Assembly: GCA_021780225.1 (NCBI GenBank)
Contig: JAJXZF010000055.1
Coordinates: 1-34,587, forward strand
From: Deltaproteobacteria bacterium
GTDB taxonomy: Bacteria; Desulfobacterota; Binatia; Binatales; Binataceae
Direction of reading: 5' to 3'
DNA length: 34,587 nt
The notes beneath the pieces are model-generated. The model worked only from the letters and a program-made list of their open reading frames with translations, did not search any database and was not told the DNA's origin. Shown here piece by piece: positions 27,602 to 33,352 of this stretch; position 1 is the stretch's first letter; the number at the start of each line of letters is the position of its first letter. The position numbers and the translations under genes are program-made.

Positions 27602-28468
27602 ATGAAAGTTCGCAAGGCCGTTATCGTCGCCGCCGGGATGGGCACGCGGATGCTGCCGGCGTCCAAGGTGATTCCGAAAGAAATTTTGCCGGTGGTCGAC
27701 AAACCGGCGATTCAGATCGTTGTGGAAGAGGCGGTCGCGTCGGGAATCGGCGAAATCGTGCTGGTGCTGAGTCCGGAACGCACGACGGTGCTCGACCACT
27801 TCCGCTCGGCGCCGGAACTGGAACGCCTGCTGGAGCGGCGCTTGCGCCATGATTTGCTCGAGATCGTCCGCTACACCAACAACCTCGCGCGTTTCCACAC
27901 CGCCCATCAGCACGAACCGCTCGGCCTCGGGCACGCCGTACTGCAGGCGCGCGCGGTGGTCGGCGACGAACCTTTCGCGGTGATTTTGCCCGACGATATT
28001 TTTGACGGCGCGCGGCCCTGTCTGCGCCAATTGCTCGACGTGGCCGAGAGCAGGGATGCGCCGGTGGTCGCGCTGATGCGGGTCGCACAGAGCGAAATAC
28101 CGAAATACGGAATCGTTGCGGTCGAGTCGGCCGGCCCGAGGCTGCATCGGCTTACCGGGATGGTCGAAAAGCCCGCGATTCCCGACGCGCCAAGCGATCT
28201 TGCGATAATGGGCCGTTATGTTCTGACGCCGGACATCTTTCCGTTGCTCGCCGAAGGCAAACCGGGCGCCGGGGGCGAGATTCAACTTACCGACGGGTTG
28301 ATGGCGCTGTCGAAACGGCGCCCGCTCTATGGCTGCGAATTCGAGGGAGTTCGTTACGATCTCGGCGATCGGCTGGGCTTTCTTGAGGCGCAAATCGGGT
28401 TCGGCTTGAAACGTCCGGAACTGGCTGATAGATTGCGCGCCTATCTGAAAACGGTGCTATCCTCTTAA
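27602..28468 (+). CDS. galU: UTP-glucose-1-phosphate uridylyltransferase
   Basis: A 288-residue nucleotidyltransferase making UDP-glucose from UTP and glucose-1-phosphate for LPS, exopolysaccharide and other sugars. The N-terminal nucleotide-binding segment AVIVAAGMGTRMLPASKVIP with KEILPVVDKPAIQIVVEEAV is diagnostic, as are PLGLGHAVLQAR, VILPDDIFDG and the C-terminal GAGGEIQLTDGLMALSKRRP. Length is normal. The start follows a weak CAGAAG. It is likely co-transcribed with the DksA-like gene, though the hairpin in between may reduce read-through. tRNA-Ala follows 15 bases after its stop. Confidence 0.96.
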   Translation: MKVRKAVIVAAGMGTRMLPASKVIPKEILPVVDKPAIQIVVEEAVASGIGEIVLVLSPERTTVLDHFRSAPELERLLERRLRHDLLEIVRYTNNLARFHTAHQHEPLGLGHAVLQARAVVGDEPFAVILPDDIFDGARPCLRQLLDVAESRDAPVVALMRVAQSEIPKYGIVAVESAGPRLHRLTGMVEKPAIPDAPSDLAIMGRYVLTPDIFPLLAEGKPGAGGEIQLTDGLMALSKRRPLYGCEFEGVRYDLGDRLGFLEAQIGFGLKRPELADRLRAYLKTVLSS

Positions 28469-28483
28469 GGAACTTCAGGCGGT

Positions 28484-28559
28484 GGGGCAGTAGCTCAGCT
28501 GGGAGAGCACTACGTTCGCAACGTAGGGGTCGAGGGTTCAAATCCCTTCTGCTCCACCA
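28484..28559 (+). tRNA. tRNA-Ala, anticodon CGC
   Basis: A 76-base cloverleaf with an encoded CCA end. The acceptor stem GGGGCAG/CTGCTCC pairs fully with the wobble G3-U70, the identity element of tRNA-Ala. The D-stem is GCTC/GAGC, the anticodon stem CTACG/CGTAG, and the loop TTCGCAA, placing anticodon CGC at 28517-28519, which reads GCG. The T arm is GAGGG TTCAAAT CCCTT with one G-T pair. Its right side marks the boundary to the accessory RHS region. Confidence 0.97.
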
Positions 28560-28637
28560 AACAATTTCGCCGATCTAGGACATTGCGGAGCGTCGCGAAA
28601 AATCCGCGCGGCGTCGCGCGATTTCCGCGCGTCCGCT

Positions 28638-29100
28638 TCCTGGGATGCGCGGAATCAGCTCGCCGGCATCACGGGCGGCCCCGCGGGTACCTTCACCGGC
28701 GCCTATGACGCGCGGATGCGCCGGTATCAACAGGTCACCGGTTTCAACGGTACAACCACTTATCTGCACGATCGGCAGGATGTCGCGCAGTCAACGAACG
28801 TGCTGGGCGCTTCGTCCACCATCAACAACTATCTCACTGTACCCGGGTCCGGCGAGGTGCTGGCGTTCGATACCCTGACGCGCTACTACGACCCGGCGTT
28901 CGGGCGATTTTTGTCGGCGGACGCCGGTCTGCCGGCGAATCCATTCGCCTATGCCGGCGACGATCCGGCGAATGCGGTCGATCCGAGCGGTTTGAGTCCG
29001 GAGTTGGTCGCGGGCGAGACCGGTTCGAGTCCGCCGCCCGACGGCCCGGCCCGGCGGGCGGGCGGCGTCGAGTTGGCGCAATCGGATTCAGGAGCGTCGG
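28638..29100 (+). pseudogene. RHS-repeat protein fragment 1 (core region with internal deletion)
   Basis: Translation in one frame gives RHS text without a start codon: SWDARNQLAGITGG and YDARMRRYQQVTGFNG, then TTTYLHDRQDVAQS, NNYLTVPGSGEVLAF, and abruptly RYYDPAFGRFLSADAG, NPFAYAGDDPANAVDPSGL. In complete RHS proteins a stretch of dozens of residues lies between the VLA and RYYDP parts; here it is missing, so the core is internally deleted. Upstream of 28638, back to the tRNA, nothing similar is seen. The frame then shifts (about 29095) into the toxin-like frame starting at 29102. This is a remnant of a polymorphic-toxin RHS gene. Confidence 0.83.
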
Positions 29101-29101
29101 G

Positions 29102-29659
29102 ATGCCCGAAGGCGACTGCTCGATCGATCTCAATCTCTCCGACAACAACGGCGGCGGATGGCTTGGCGCCCTCATCAACTTCTTTTCAAGCCTGTTCGGC
29201 GGCGGCGGAAGCGGACCGAAGATCGTTCCCGCCGGCTATCGCCGCATCGCCCACTATCCGGCGATGCAATTCATCTCGGATTCGCCGGCGGACATCCAGC
29301 AATTCACGCCCGACATGAAAGAGAAGTCGCACGCCATCGAGATCATCGCCGCGGGTGTGAGTCGGCAGATGGGCCGTCTCATCTTTGCGCAGATGGAGGA
29401 CGATGAGGATCCTGAAGAAGAGGCTGTCGCCGAAGCAGAGTTTTTCCAAAGCGCCTTCGCTGGTCGTCCCACATTTTCTCCAACTGGGGGCGTCTGGTTG
29501 CGCTATGATGGAGGCGAATTTTTTCTACCCGGTGGCATTGAAGGCAAGCCCTCAGATAACGGGAAAGGGTTGATATTCGATTTAGGCGATAACATGTCTG
29601 TCAGAATTCAAGGACCGAAGACCGAAGGAAAGTACAAATATCCAACTGGCTATTTTTGA
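29102..29659 (+). CDS. RHS C-terminal toxin-like tip, with in-frame TGA
   Basis: A 185-residue reading of the variable tip after the RHS core. It starts MPEGDCSIDLNLSDNNGGGW, has a short hydrophobic glycine-rich segment (LGALINFFSSLFGGGGSG), and ends GLIFDLGDNMSVRIQGPKTE and YKYPTGYF before TGA at 29657. Continuing past this TGA in the same frame gives 27 more codons, VYRGPQPIDLSTDEPGSDED then THYGLIR, ending at 29743. The G/RxPIDL..DxPGSDxxTHY pattern is what many RHS tips end in, so the TGA is probably a premature stop (for example from a TGG Trp codon). The toxin activity is unknown. Base composition becomes A/T-rich along the frame, as in shuffled toxin tips. Its state as toxin, decayed or not, is inference. 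Confidence 0.6.
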   Translation: MPEGDCSIDLNLSDNNGGGWLGALINFFSSLFGGGGSGPKIVPAGYRRIAHYPAMQFISDSPADIQQFTPDMKEKSHAIEIIAAGVSRQMGRLIFAQMEDDEDPEEEAVAEAEFFQSAFAGRPTFSPTGGVWLRYDGGEFFLPGGIEGKPSDNGKGLIFDLGDNMSVRIQGPKTEGKYKYPTGYF

Positions 29660-29757
29660 GTGTATAGAGGGCCTCAACCAATTGATTTGAGCACAGATGA
29701 GCCAGGGTCTGACGAAGACACCCATTATGGATTAATTCGTTGACAACGGTGACAGCT

Positions 29758-30123
29758 ATGAGCCGACTAACTGAAGGATTGAGCGAACACTTAAGAGCCG
29801 TGATGGGAACTGGTAATCTGATACAGATTCAGTTTAGTCTTTATCAGGTAATTTTGGTGTTTAAGAAAATGCACATGGAAGTGTTCCAAAATTGCGAGAT
29901 ACATTGTCCCACCAAAGAGATATGGAAGTGGAATGCAGAGCGGATCAGCGACATGAGCGGCTTCGCTAGGCTTCTGAATTCGCGGCTCATTAGTTACGAG
30001 ATCCAGTATCCGGATACGGTCATTTTTCGTTTCTCAAATGGCTGTGAACTTATCCTGAATGACAATCATAGTGGGTTCGAAATATTTGTAATTCATATTG
30101 GCAGTAAAACGATAGTTGTTTAA
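29758..30123 (+). CDS. Probable immunity protein for the RHS tip
   Basis: A 121-residue, A/T-rich gene directly after the RHS tip. Its C-terminal half (YEIQYPDTVIFRFSNGCELI, then NDNHSGFEIFVIHIGSKTIV) alternates strands with a D/N-rich turn, in the style of small immunity-like families such as DUF6188; I cannot confirm the family by eye. ATG 29758 is used; an in-frame TTG at 29740 would overlap the read-through toxin stop (TTGA), the arrangement expected of a toxin-immunity pair. No signal peptide or membrane helix is visible, fitting a cytosolic inhibitor of the tip. Its role is inferred from position, size and composition. Confidence 0.6.
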   Translation: MSRLTEGLSEHLRAVMGTGNLIQIQFSLYQVILVFKKMHMEVFQNCEIHCPTKEIWKWNAERISDMSGFARLLNSRLISYEIQYPDTVIFRFSNGCELILNDNHSGFEIFVIHIGSKTIVV

Positions 30124-30276
30124 TTGAACTGTGGAGAGTGTGCGCGAGCGATCGAATGAAGTAGCGCGCGCATGTTTGTTCATAGCAATGACTCCGACGT
30201 CGATCGGCTCGATATATTGAGAGTTGTGGAGATGCCCTGCGGCCAAACTGCCACTCACAAATCCCGACTTGCTAGA

Positions 30277-30840
30277 GTTGTCCAGATCGACCACCGACCC
30301 CAAAGGCAACGTCAGCTACGACGCTGACGGGCGCATCGTGGGCGAGAGCGGGAGCCTGGCGGCGCTCAATCTGCCGCAATCCGAGGGTCCCAACAGTTAT
30401 TCCAACCTCAACCAGATCACGAGCTGGAACGGTCCAAAGAACGTGGCGACCGCCGATCTCAACGGCAATCTACTGACCGACCCCGTCAGCGGCGCGACTT
30501 ATTCCTGGGATTCGCGCAACCAGCTTGCGTCGATCGACGGCGAGCCGGCGGGATCGTTCAGCGCGGATTACGACGCGCTCACGCGGCGCTATGACCAGAC
30601 CACCGCCTACGGCGGCACGACCACCTATCTGCACGACGGGAAGACGGTGGCGCAGTCGTCGAACGGAGTTGCCACGAGCGGGTGCAATTCGTGCAATACT
30701 TATCTGACCATGCCGGGGACGGGCTCGGTGCTGGCGGCGTCGAATCGTGAACGGCGGGACGACCAGCGTCTATGTGTCGGTCAAGGACTTGACGGGTTCG
30801 ACCCTGGCGCTGGTGAATGCGTCCGGCGGCGTGGCGATAG
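30277..30840 (+). pseudogene. RHS-repeat protein fragment 2 (truncated, frameshifted)
   Basis: RHS-repeat text begins near 30277 with DPKGNVSYDADGRIVGESGS and continues NSYSNLNQITSWNG, ADLNGNLLTDPVSGATYSWD, SRNQLASIDGEPAGSFSADY, TTTYLHDGKTVAQS, YLTMPGTGSVLAAS. At about 30740 the frame shifts by one base into VNGGTTSVYVSVKDLTGSTL and ALVNASGGVAIVS. RHS homology stops there, right beside the stop codon of the opposite-strand aldehyde dehydrogenase (30841). The part equivalent to fragment 1 (SWD..VLA) is clearly diverged in DNA, so this is a different RHS gene, not a copy. The stretch 30124-30276 before it shows no gene. Confidence 0.82.
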
Positions 30841-32424
30841 TCAGCGTTGCTCGGGCAGCAGTGTGTACTCCGGAAAATTCCCGTACAGCCGCTCGTCGCC
30901 TTCGCCGCGGGTGAGGGCGTCAACCAGCAGCCGTCCGCCCACGAACGCCCCCTTCCACGACATCCCGAGTCCGCCGAACGTCTCGTCGCGATCTCCCCGC
31001 GAGCGCATCGTGTTGATGCCGACCTTGAACGATCGCAATTGCACCGCGATTTTTCCCGACAATGCGGGATCGTCGCACGCGATTGACGACACCAGCGATC
31101 CGTTCGACACGTTCATCTCGTGGATCAGTTCTTCGAGCCGATCGACCACCAGAATCGAATCCACCGGGCCAAAAGGCTCCAGATGGTACAACATGCAGGT
31201 CTTGGTGATATTGAGCAGCGATGCCGGCGCGAAGTACGCCGAACGATCCTGGCCCGGGATGAAAAGCGAATCGTCGAACTTCCCCTCGTAGAGCATCACC
31301 GCGCCGCGCTCGTGCGCCTCCTTCACGTCGGAGCGGAGTTCCGCGGCCTTGCCAGGGCTGATGAGCGGGCCGAAGTCGAGGTCGGCGGGTTCGTCAGCGG
31401 GCAGGTTGACGAGCGCCGGATGCCCGTAGCGAAGCGACTTCACCGCGCCAAGATATGCGTCGAGGAACTGCGGAAACAGCCTCCGCTGGACGACGAATCG
31501 CACGTACGCGGTGCATCGCTGCTTGCCGTACTCGAAGCCCTTCTTGATCTGCTTGGTCAGCTCCGGCCAGTTGGAGAATTCCCAGATGCCATACGGATTG
31601 ACGCCTTCCATCTCCAGCATGTAGCGGACCCCGCGATACGACAGGCGCTCGGCGATAGCGCCGCCGGTCTCCTTGCCGCCGACGAACGCGACGCATGCGA
31701 TCGCGGGATCGGAAACCAGCGCCTTGCTCAGATCACCTCCGGGTCCGCTGACGATCGATACCGGCAGGCCGCATCGCCGCGCGATCGCCGAGCATACCGA
31801 GAGCGCATACAGCCCGCCGTCGGTGGGCGTCTTCATGATCGCCGTGTTTCCCGCCAACACCTGTACGAGAACCGCATGGAACAGCGCCGAGAGCGGGTAG
31901 TTCCACGACGCGATATTCGACACGAGTCCGATCGGCGTGCGGTTTCCAAGCATCGGTTCGATTTTCTCGATGTACCATTCAACGCCCGAGATACAGCGGT
32001 CCACGTCGGCGGCGGCGAGCCGATGCGGTTTGCCGATTTCCCACATCAGGAGATAGATGAGAAGCTCGCGATGCTTCTTTATCCCGGCCAGGCAGTCGGC
32101 GACGCGACGGCGCCGCTCGTCGAGATCGATGCGCGACCACGCCGGATGCTCTTGCGCCTGATACGCAACGGCGCTCTGCGCGACTTCATAGGAGATGAAG
32201 GGCAGATTGCCCAGTTCCGTGCCGTCGTTGGGCGATCTGTACGGCCGATCGTAACCCGCGTCCTGCCATTTGCCGCCGATCAGATTCAGGATGCGTCTCT
32301 GCGAATCGAATGCCTCGGGTATCAGTCCTTGAACCTCGGACAGAAGCTGGCTCCATTGCGCCGCGGCGAGTATCTGAGGGTGAGCGTCGTGACGCGGATC
32401 GACGGTCTTAGCGACGGTTGCCAT
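30841..32424 (-). CDS. Aldehyde dehydrogenase family protein with variant active-site text
   Basis: A 527-residue NAD(P)-dependent aldehyde dehydrogenase-fold protein. Catalytic residues are recognisable: N175 in SNIASWNYPL, K198 in GNTAIMKTP, general base E271 in MLEMEGVNPYG and nucleophile C304 in YGKQRCTAYVRF, with normal spacing between the last two. The usual LELGGK and GQxC texts are altered to LEMEGV and GKQRC, which sets it apart from the common families. A long N-terminal part precedes the Rossmann domain (about residues 1-45 are unusual), and FGGLGMSWKGAFVGG is near the C-terminus. Substrate is unknown. It ends against RHS fragment 2 and starts 262 bases from the nitroreductase; a TTG/ATG choice is not an issue, as ATG 32424 fits. 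Confidence 0.9.
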   Translation of the reverse strand: MATVAKTVDPRHDAHPQILAAAQWSQLLSEVQGLIPEAFDSQRRILNLIGGKWQDAGYDRPYRSPNDGTELGNLPFISYEVAQSAVAYQAQEHPAWSRIDLDERRRRVADCLAGIKKHRELLIYLLMWEIGKPHRLAAADVDRCISGVEWYIEKIEPMLGNRTPIGLVSNIASWNYPLSALFHAVLVQVLAGNTAIMKTPTDGGLYALSVCSAIARRCGLPVSIVSGPGGDLSKALVSDPAIACVAFVGGKETGGAIAERLSYRGVRYMLEMEGVNPYGIWEFSNWPELTKQIKKGFEYGKQRCTAYVRFVVQRRLFPQFLDAYLGAVKSLRYGHPALVNLPADEPADLDFGPLISPGKAAELRSDVKEAHERGAVMLYEGKFDDSLFIPGQDRSAYFAPASLLNITKTCMLYHLEPFGPVDSILVVDRLEELIHEMNVSNGSLVSSIACDDPALSGKIAVQLRSFKVGINTMRSRGDRDETFGGLGMSWKGAFVGGRLLVDALTRGEGDERLYGNFPEYTLLPEQR

Positions 32425-32686: not shown

Positions 32687-33352
32687 TCAGGTACAGCGGG
32701 AGGAGAACGGCCCATCTCGAAGCGAATTTGGCTGGCGCGGCGCTTCTATCGGTCGCTCGCTCCACTTCTCCCAGTGAATTACCTCCGAGATCGGCTTCCG
32801 CGTAACCTTGACGAAATCCTTCTGCGGCCAGCCAATCGGAATCATCACGCCGAATTTTATCTCTTTTGGAATTCCCAGCAGGTCGCGGAGCTCGCTTTCC
32901 ATGAACATGTGAAAGGTGGTGAAGGTCGTGCCCAAACCGAGCGCGCGAGCGGCGACGATCAGGTTCTGAGCCGCCGGGTAGAGCGCGGACCAGACAAATT
33001 GCTCCATCGGCGCGTTGGGGAGATACGCTACAGGACCACATACGAAGATGATGGCCGGAACTTCATTCAACATTTCCGCCAGATGCATGGCGCCGGCGAT
33101 CATTCGCCTGGTAACCTTCCCGGTCGTTGGCGCGCCCACGCCCATCGTCTTGAATCGCGGCGCGAGTAGATCGCGGATTTTTTGTTTTGTTTCAGGATTG
33201 CGTACAACTATGAAGTCCCACGCCTGGCTGTTGCCCGGACTCGATGCGCGAGTGGCGGCGTAGATTGCACGCTCAATAAGGTCCTGCGGCACCGGATCGG
33301 GCTTCAAGTAACGCGCCGCACTACACGTTTCCATCGCCTCGATGACATCCAT
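32687..33352 (-). CDS. Nitroreductase family protein (FMN-dependent oxidoreductase)
   Basis: A 221-residue nitroreductase-fold protein (PF00881). Family text includes CSAARYLKPDPVPQDLIERA (FMN-phosphate contacts normally R-S-x-R), ATRASSPGNSQAWDFIVV, ALYPAAQNLIVAARALGLGT with TTFHMF, and IPIGWPQKDFVKVTRKPISE near the C-terminus. Such proteins reduce nitroaromatics, quinones, enals or other acceptors with NAD(P)H; here the typical arginine pair is only partly kept (R14), so the activity is open. Length is normal and the start is ATG 33352. It is upstream of the aldehyde dehydrogenase on the same strand, 262 bases away; that gap shows no gene, with only an unrecognised A/T-richer segment at 32590-32670. 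Confidence 0.9.
   Translation of the reverse strand: MDVIEAMETCSAARYLKPDPVPQDLIERAIYAATRASSPGNSQAWDFIVVRNPETKQKIRDLLAPRFKTMGVGAPTTGKVTRRMIAGAMHLAEMLNEVPAIIFVCGPVAYLPNAPMEQFVWSALYPAAQNLIVAARALGLGTTFTTFHMFMESELRDLLGIPKEIKFGVMIPIGWPQKDFVKVTRKPISEVIHWEKWSERPIEAPRQPNSLRDGPFSSRCT

Follow-up and report, generated by a model that had tools for sequence, protein, structure and literature searches.

A decayed Rhs locus beside tRNA-Ala(CGC) in a genome of the Binataceae

Loci of rhs genes may carry GC-poor stretches in which a fragmentary core is followed by a tip, interrupted by frameshifts and stops, and may also carry core pieces with no obvious tip. Passages of Jackson et al. 2009 (PMC2935791) attribute both to the displacement of C-terminal tips, and describe arrays in which the cores that have become dissociated hardly differ from the parent gene and a full-length rhs gene lies upstream. 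The locus analyzed here resembles the tips described in those passages, because a core fragment and a tip reside in a GC-poor stretch, are frameshifted and stopped, and are accompanied by a tipless core piece. It differs from the arrays in that no full-length rhs gene with a nearly identical core is found upstream, the cores are 70% identical, and a tRNA gene stands beside the relic. A second term of comparison is provided by toxin/immunity modules that occur as orphans in CDI and Rhs loci, treated in sections of PMC3150448. As in those modules, a toxin piece lacking the gene start is followed by a small open frame; unlike in them, the toxin frame is stopped. Since, according to the same sections, one E. 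coli strain makes an immunity protein from an orphan gene, the small ORF of our locus might, by analogy, be active too. The third system is the HINT toxin/DUF6188 pair of Streptomyces sp. NBC_00690 (NZ_CP109010.1), which has the gene order of our locus and a C-terminal tip that may be similar, but has a different delivery protein, and a DUF6188 neighbour whose sequence does not match our small ORF.

The window, as we call the whole stretch of 34,587 nucleotides under analysis, corresponds to an entire contig (C23) of a draft genome of 3.8 Mb in 118 contigs. On the left, galU (27602-28468) lies beside tRNA-Ala(CGC) (28484-28559, plus strand), identified by ARAGORN. On the right, a convergent aldehyde dehydrogenase gene (30841-32424, minus strand; PF00171, 253.5 bits) lies outside the relic. 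Between them, all on the plus strand, a first Rhs core fragment (28637-29102), a tip, an open frame of 121 amino acids (29758-30123) and a second core fragment (from 30296) follow one another. A sequence-only reading of this DNA had described two diverged Rhs fragments bracketing an A/T-rich tip and a small gene, and the arrangement is confirmed, with the fragments placed at about 28637-29102 and 30296-30837. The G+C content falls from about 0.63 to 0.44 across the tip and the small ORF; GC3 is 0.77 in the first Rhs piece and 0.81 in the second, against 0.44 in the C-terminal part of the tip and 0.48 in the small ORF.

The region 28637-30837 probably represents the remains of a tandem Rhs array, made of displaced core-tip-immunity cassettes. 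In the ancestral Rhs protein, the C-terminal tip, presumably toxic, would have been carried into rival cells, the producer being shielded by a small protein. Recombination would have pushed old tips downstream together with a piece of core. Fragment 1, the tip and the 121-aa ORF would make up one displaced cassette, and fragment 2 would be the start of another, its tip gone; later deletions would have taken away the left-hand part and, on the right, the tip of the second cassette. We counted in favour of this history the match to the core model, the common Rhs frame of a relative onto which both fragments map, the apparent likeness of the tip to a polymorphic toxin along with the DUF6188 order, the trough in G+C content, the tandem cores found in relatives, and the precedent of the fragments described in PMC2935791. 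Counted against it were the lack of an upstream full-length Rhs gene, the 70% identity of the cores, the database E value of 0.2 for the tip, the lack of tip relatives at E 0.001, and an ORF not recognizable as DUF6188. The relic is an ordinary decay product of Rhs cassettes beside a tRNA which is hotspot-like in relatives, and provides, from an uncharacterized bacterial family, an example of decaying Rhs cassettes that is mapped in detail.

Fragment 1, read in the frame of 28638, matches the Rhs core model TIGR03696 (Rhs_assc_core) with 41.1 bits (cut-off 32.5), and is the one match above the core cut-off in the genome; a further match to the model, at 2047-2130 of the window (E 1.28), was taken as chance. 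Fragment 2 has no NCBIfam match, and with 18.8 bits stays below the cut-off of 22 of PF05593 (RHS_repeat). Its Rhs homology follows from direct comparison, and not from a curated model: it shares 59% of 141 aligned residues with an Rhs frame, open over 574 codons, in G022, a genome of a genus related to that of the window. The G022 frame is likewise under the PF05593 cut-off (19.2 bits), yet scores 65.8 bits for the Rhs core. Fragment 1 aligns with the same frame (contig C92 of G022) as two collinear halves, 60% and 65% identical, and skips, near 28866-28880, about 63 G022 residues (counted by eye) between the VLA and RYYDP stretches. Fragment 2 (30296-30748) maps onto an overlapping part of that frame; it matches the Rhs sequence of locus L086 from 30296 and the G022 frame from 30314. 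After 30748 the frame shifts, and a continuation at 30747-30837 matches Rhs pieces of loci L082, L055 and L086 (54-69% identity in tblastn) and runs up to just short of the aldehyde dehydrogenase stop. At the opposite end, the upstream part of fragment 1 is missing, and its neighbours are the tRNA and galU. A full-length Rhs polymorphic toxin gene, having an N-terminal delivery part and a frame open into the tip, is not found in this region, where frame changes and a stop occur; that one existed formerly is what we infer.

Aligned as DNA over 164 bases, the SWD..VLA stretches of the two fragments are 70% identical (E 2e-17). At this divergence the fragments must be two copies, and not a single gene split by error, and the objection that one gene had been broken in assembly does not hold. 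Over 50 aligned codons, differences number 10, 13 and 24 at first, second and third positions, and 14 of the 32 differing codons are synonymous, a pattern that fits divergence while coding and breakage at a later time. The sequence-only reading had called for contributions from two or more different Rhs genes. The core must indeed have been present in two copies, but a single array of tandem cassettes suffices to provide them, and tandem cores occur in relatives. Alternatively, two unrelated Rhs genes may have left one fragment each through separate events. The 70% identity would agree with such an origin, as would the five core matches spread over four contigs of G022, but the fragments are adjacent, lie on the same strand and map onto the same G022 frame, as cassettes of one array would, and we regard separate origins as rather unlikely.

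The tip lies in a frame different from that of fragment 1 (ORF 29102-29659), and includes a G+C-rich N-terminal part (29102-29398, GC3 0.80) and an A/T-rich, toxin-like C-terminal part (29399-29740), which contains an in-frame stop at 29657-29659. No curated family passes its cut-off over the tip. A tblastn search of plasmids, performed with the last 85 positions and an X at the stop, yielded three records, the best being the C-terminus of the Streptomyces HINT-type polymorphic toxin, with a database E of only 0.2. When the two tips were compared directly, after the match had been chosen, 36% of 69 columns were identical, with a pairwise E of 8e-8 and a score that none of 5000 shuffles reached. 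The apparent likeness covers the last 65 or so positions of the tip and continues past the stop, which is read as a lesion for this reason. In Streptomyces sp. NBC_00690 a DUF6188 gene starts 2 bases downstream of the toxin. A tip on an Aeromicrobium plasmid is 64% identical to the Streptomyces tip over 47 residues, and a DUF6188 ORF adjoins it as well. The remaining two plasmid records, Pantoea sequences of the DJ-1/PfpI type, have E 4.

When 394 other genomes of the phylum were searched with an 86-residue piece of the tip, none gave a match at E 0.001; matches of a longer piece in 21 other genomes of the phylum (E 0.0018 to 0.1, the best one 38% identical) were treated as noise. Neither a shorter piece searched against plasmids nor the tip searched against genome contigs found a relative. 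Among PDB sequences, the best of 23 matches was a lung surfactant lectin (E 0.0055; 0.13 for the best stretch), and was dismissed as chance. The AlphaFold2 model of the tip, built without alignment, is poor (mean pLDDT 36.2). The claim that decaying Rhs remains and a toxin-like tip reside here is borne out by the core match, the frame breaks, the apparent Streptomyces likeness and the comparison with G022. As read from its sequence, the toxin is dead as a gene, given the missing Rhs beginning, the frame changes and the in-frame stop.

The 121-aa ORF (29758-30123, inside a larger ORF at 29740-30123) is open and directly follows the tip, as DUF6188 follows the tip in Streptomyces and Aeromicrobium. 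It is immunity-like by position and size, and its product may still be made. The order of genes had suggested DUF6188 (PF19686) as its family, but the assignment found no support when tested. No match was seen between the ORF and the DUF6188 neighbour of Streptomyces, and 2359 of 5000 shuffles score as high. A DUF6188 profile of our own, made of 10 sequences, aligned in register with 2.7 bits (E 0.0079 in a one-sequence search; 22 of 2000 shuffles as high), and hhalign assigned a probability of 0.5% to the pair. A search of 395 genomes of the phylum did not find DUF6188, though its 14 controls gave no match either. No Pfam match and no curated family above cut-off was obtained for the ORF, nor any relative in genome contigs or plasmids; its best match among PDB sequences (E 0.98) is chance, and a Foldseek search of PDB with its AlphaFold2 model, a poor one built without alignment (mean pLDDT 54.4), returned nothing at E 0.001. 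The probable immunity gene of the sequence-only reading is thus retained for its position and size, while its identity found no backing. One may hypothesize that the ORF encodes an immunity protein which still functions, belongs to an undescribed family and has been maintained by selection although the toxin died, and that the tip, exchanged between phyla, forms a new branch within the Streptomyces/Aeromicrobium toxin type; we consider this scenario quite improbable.

The stretch immediately downstream of the tRNA (28560-28628) is probably ancestral. Its 68 or so bases align in one register with the post-tRNA flanks of seven loci, 7 of 7 giving local matches, although these loci had been picked for their similar-looking flanks. 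For five of the loci none of 500 shuffles scored as high, whereas 3 did for L056 and 2 for L062. Among 199 further 200-base stretches taken from the window, some overlapping the flank site itself, 1 scored as high for each of the five, 3 for L056 and 5 for L062. In two of the seven, L056 and L060, an ORF farther on was scanned and corresponds to a serine recombinase. Rhs similarity begins at 28637, and the left edge of the relic is therefore located about 68-77 bases beyond the tRNA. The genes scanned as far as the contig end include no integrase, the window contains no second copy of any 12-mer of 28521-28560, and short repeats revealed no insertion footprint. Because shared flank precedes the Rhs sequence, and neither an integrase nor a repeated tRNA 3' end was found, the relic presumably does not sit at the attachment site; it would have been joined inside the older flank by deletion or recombination, away from such a site. 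Promoter-like sites (2, shuffle mean 1.1) and terminator-like sites (3, shuffle mean 2.1) are in no clear excess.

The behaviour of the same tRNA in relatives differs from that of the window. galU was detected in 41 of 57 related genomes, tRNA-Ala(CGC) in 24 of the 29 galU loci scanned in other genomes, and a simple pattern locates the tRNA in 16 of 18 loci fetched with longer sequence. Just past the tRNA, Pfam recognizes a tyrosine integrase above its cut-off both in G003 (L055, 3.7e-11) and in G009 (L068, 9.6e-11); in G004 (L052) an integrase N-terminal domain (2.2e-4) is found at the same place with 21.8 bits, under the cut-off of 22.6. Serine recombinases occur farther along in the G002 and G020 loci, and three more chosen ORFs, in G024, G014 and G023, are not recombinases, that of G023 being a LysR regulator. 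These counts are a minimum, as only chosen ORFs were scanned. G003 and G009 belong to different genera, and their galU genes are 93% and 63% identical to that of the window, respectively; behind the tRNA their integrase regions are 92.4% identical over 675 bases. The galU/tRNA-Ala(CGC) pair is conserved in the family, mobile DNA seems to use the tRNA, and integrases seem to have moved between genera at this site. As terms, tRNA-Ala and "integration hotspot" occur in PMC2612704, and galU does not; no novelty is claimed for a galU/tRNA-Ala hotspot. G020 (L060) has two copies of the post-tRNA flank at a distance of about 2.55 kb, as though an insertion had duplicated it.

The relic could also be viewed as cargo of a genomic island targeted to tRNA-Ala, imported via an integrase and later deprived of integrase and ends. 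The integrases behind the same tRNA in G003 and G009, the weaker domain in G004, and the 92.4% identity of the G003 and G009 regions, set against galU genes 93% and 63% identical to that of the window, all speak for it, as do Rhs pieces of G003 found past the integrase, about 5.6 to 7.7 kb from the galU start. In the window, however, shared flank separates the tRNA from the Rhs sequence and no tRNA end is repeated, and the genes scanned to the right of the relic encode an aldehyde dehydrogenase, a nitroreductase and a methyltransferase. Even in G003 the tRNA end was not seen to recur, either with 12-mers in the first 15 kb or in the next 60 kb, save one 11-base match, near chance. We deem such an import unlikely. 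The insertion hotspot envisaged by the sequence-only reading may be accepted for the tRNA in relatives, but not for this relic. Adjacency to a tRNA alone is no evidence of tRNA-targeted insertion.

At E 1e-100, the aldehyde dehydrogenase is present in one of six genus mates, on a contig other than that of galU. Six genomes belonging to other genera have a nitroreductase 85-89% identical to that of the window (32687-33352), whereas in the three genus mates matching at E 1e-40 the identity is about 41%; the G014 copy also lies less than 5 kb from the galU of that genome.

Returning to the decayed array, Rhs core matches at E 0.001 were found in 21 of 41 genomes of the family, 19 of them above the cut-off, and several are in tandem (contigs C9 of G003, C130 of G029 and C319 of G001). 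In the five genus mates having galU (the sixth, G005, gave no galU match) similarity to the pieces of the window, over 1.5 to 11.3 kb of readable sequence per locus, revealed no Rhs sequence directly behind the tRNA, and revealed it farther on in G003 alone; other Rhs types would escape such a scan. Within these bounds the arrangement is not fixed in all relatives.

The quality of the draft has also to be weighed. The genome is split into 118 contigs, several relatives have their Rhs matches close to the ends of contigs, and another, short contig of the same bin, C106, points to mis-binning there, so that an artefact of assembly or binning might be suspected in the window too. Yet the galU of the window is 95% identical to that of G004, the shared post-tRNA flank is present, and the fragments are too divergent for a collapsed or duplicated repeat; an artefact is very improbable. 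C106 (locus L013) had been taken into account as a second, parallel Rhs relic of the genome, and was dropped since it is identical to a contig of another species. Its positions 1-2295 are 100% identical, over 2295 bases compared, to contig C247 of G001, a genome whose galU is 93% identical to that of the window. C106 is probably mis-binned, or the product of a very recent transfer. Beside its Rhs relic, on the minus strand at 905-1486, C106 carries a DUF6968 ORF (54.7 bits, cut-off 27), possibly another immunity-type gene.
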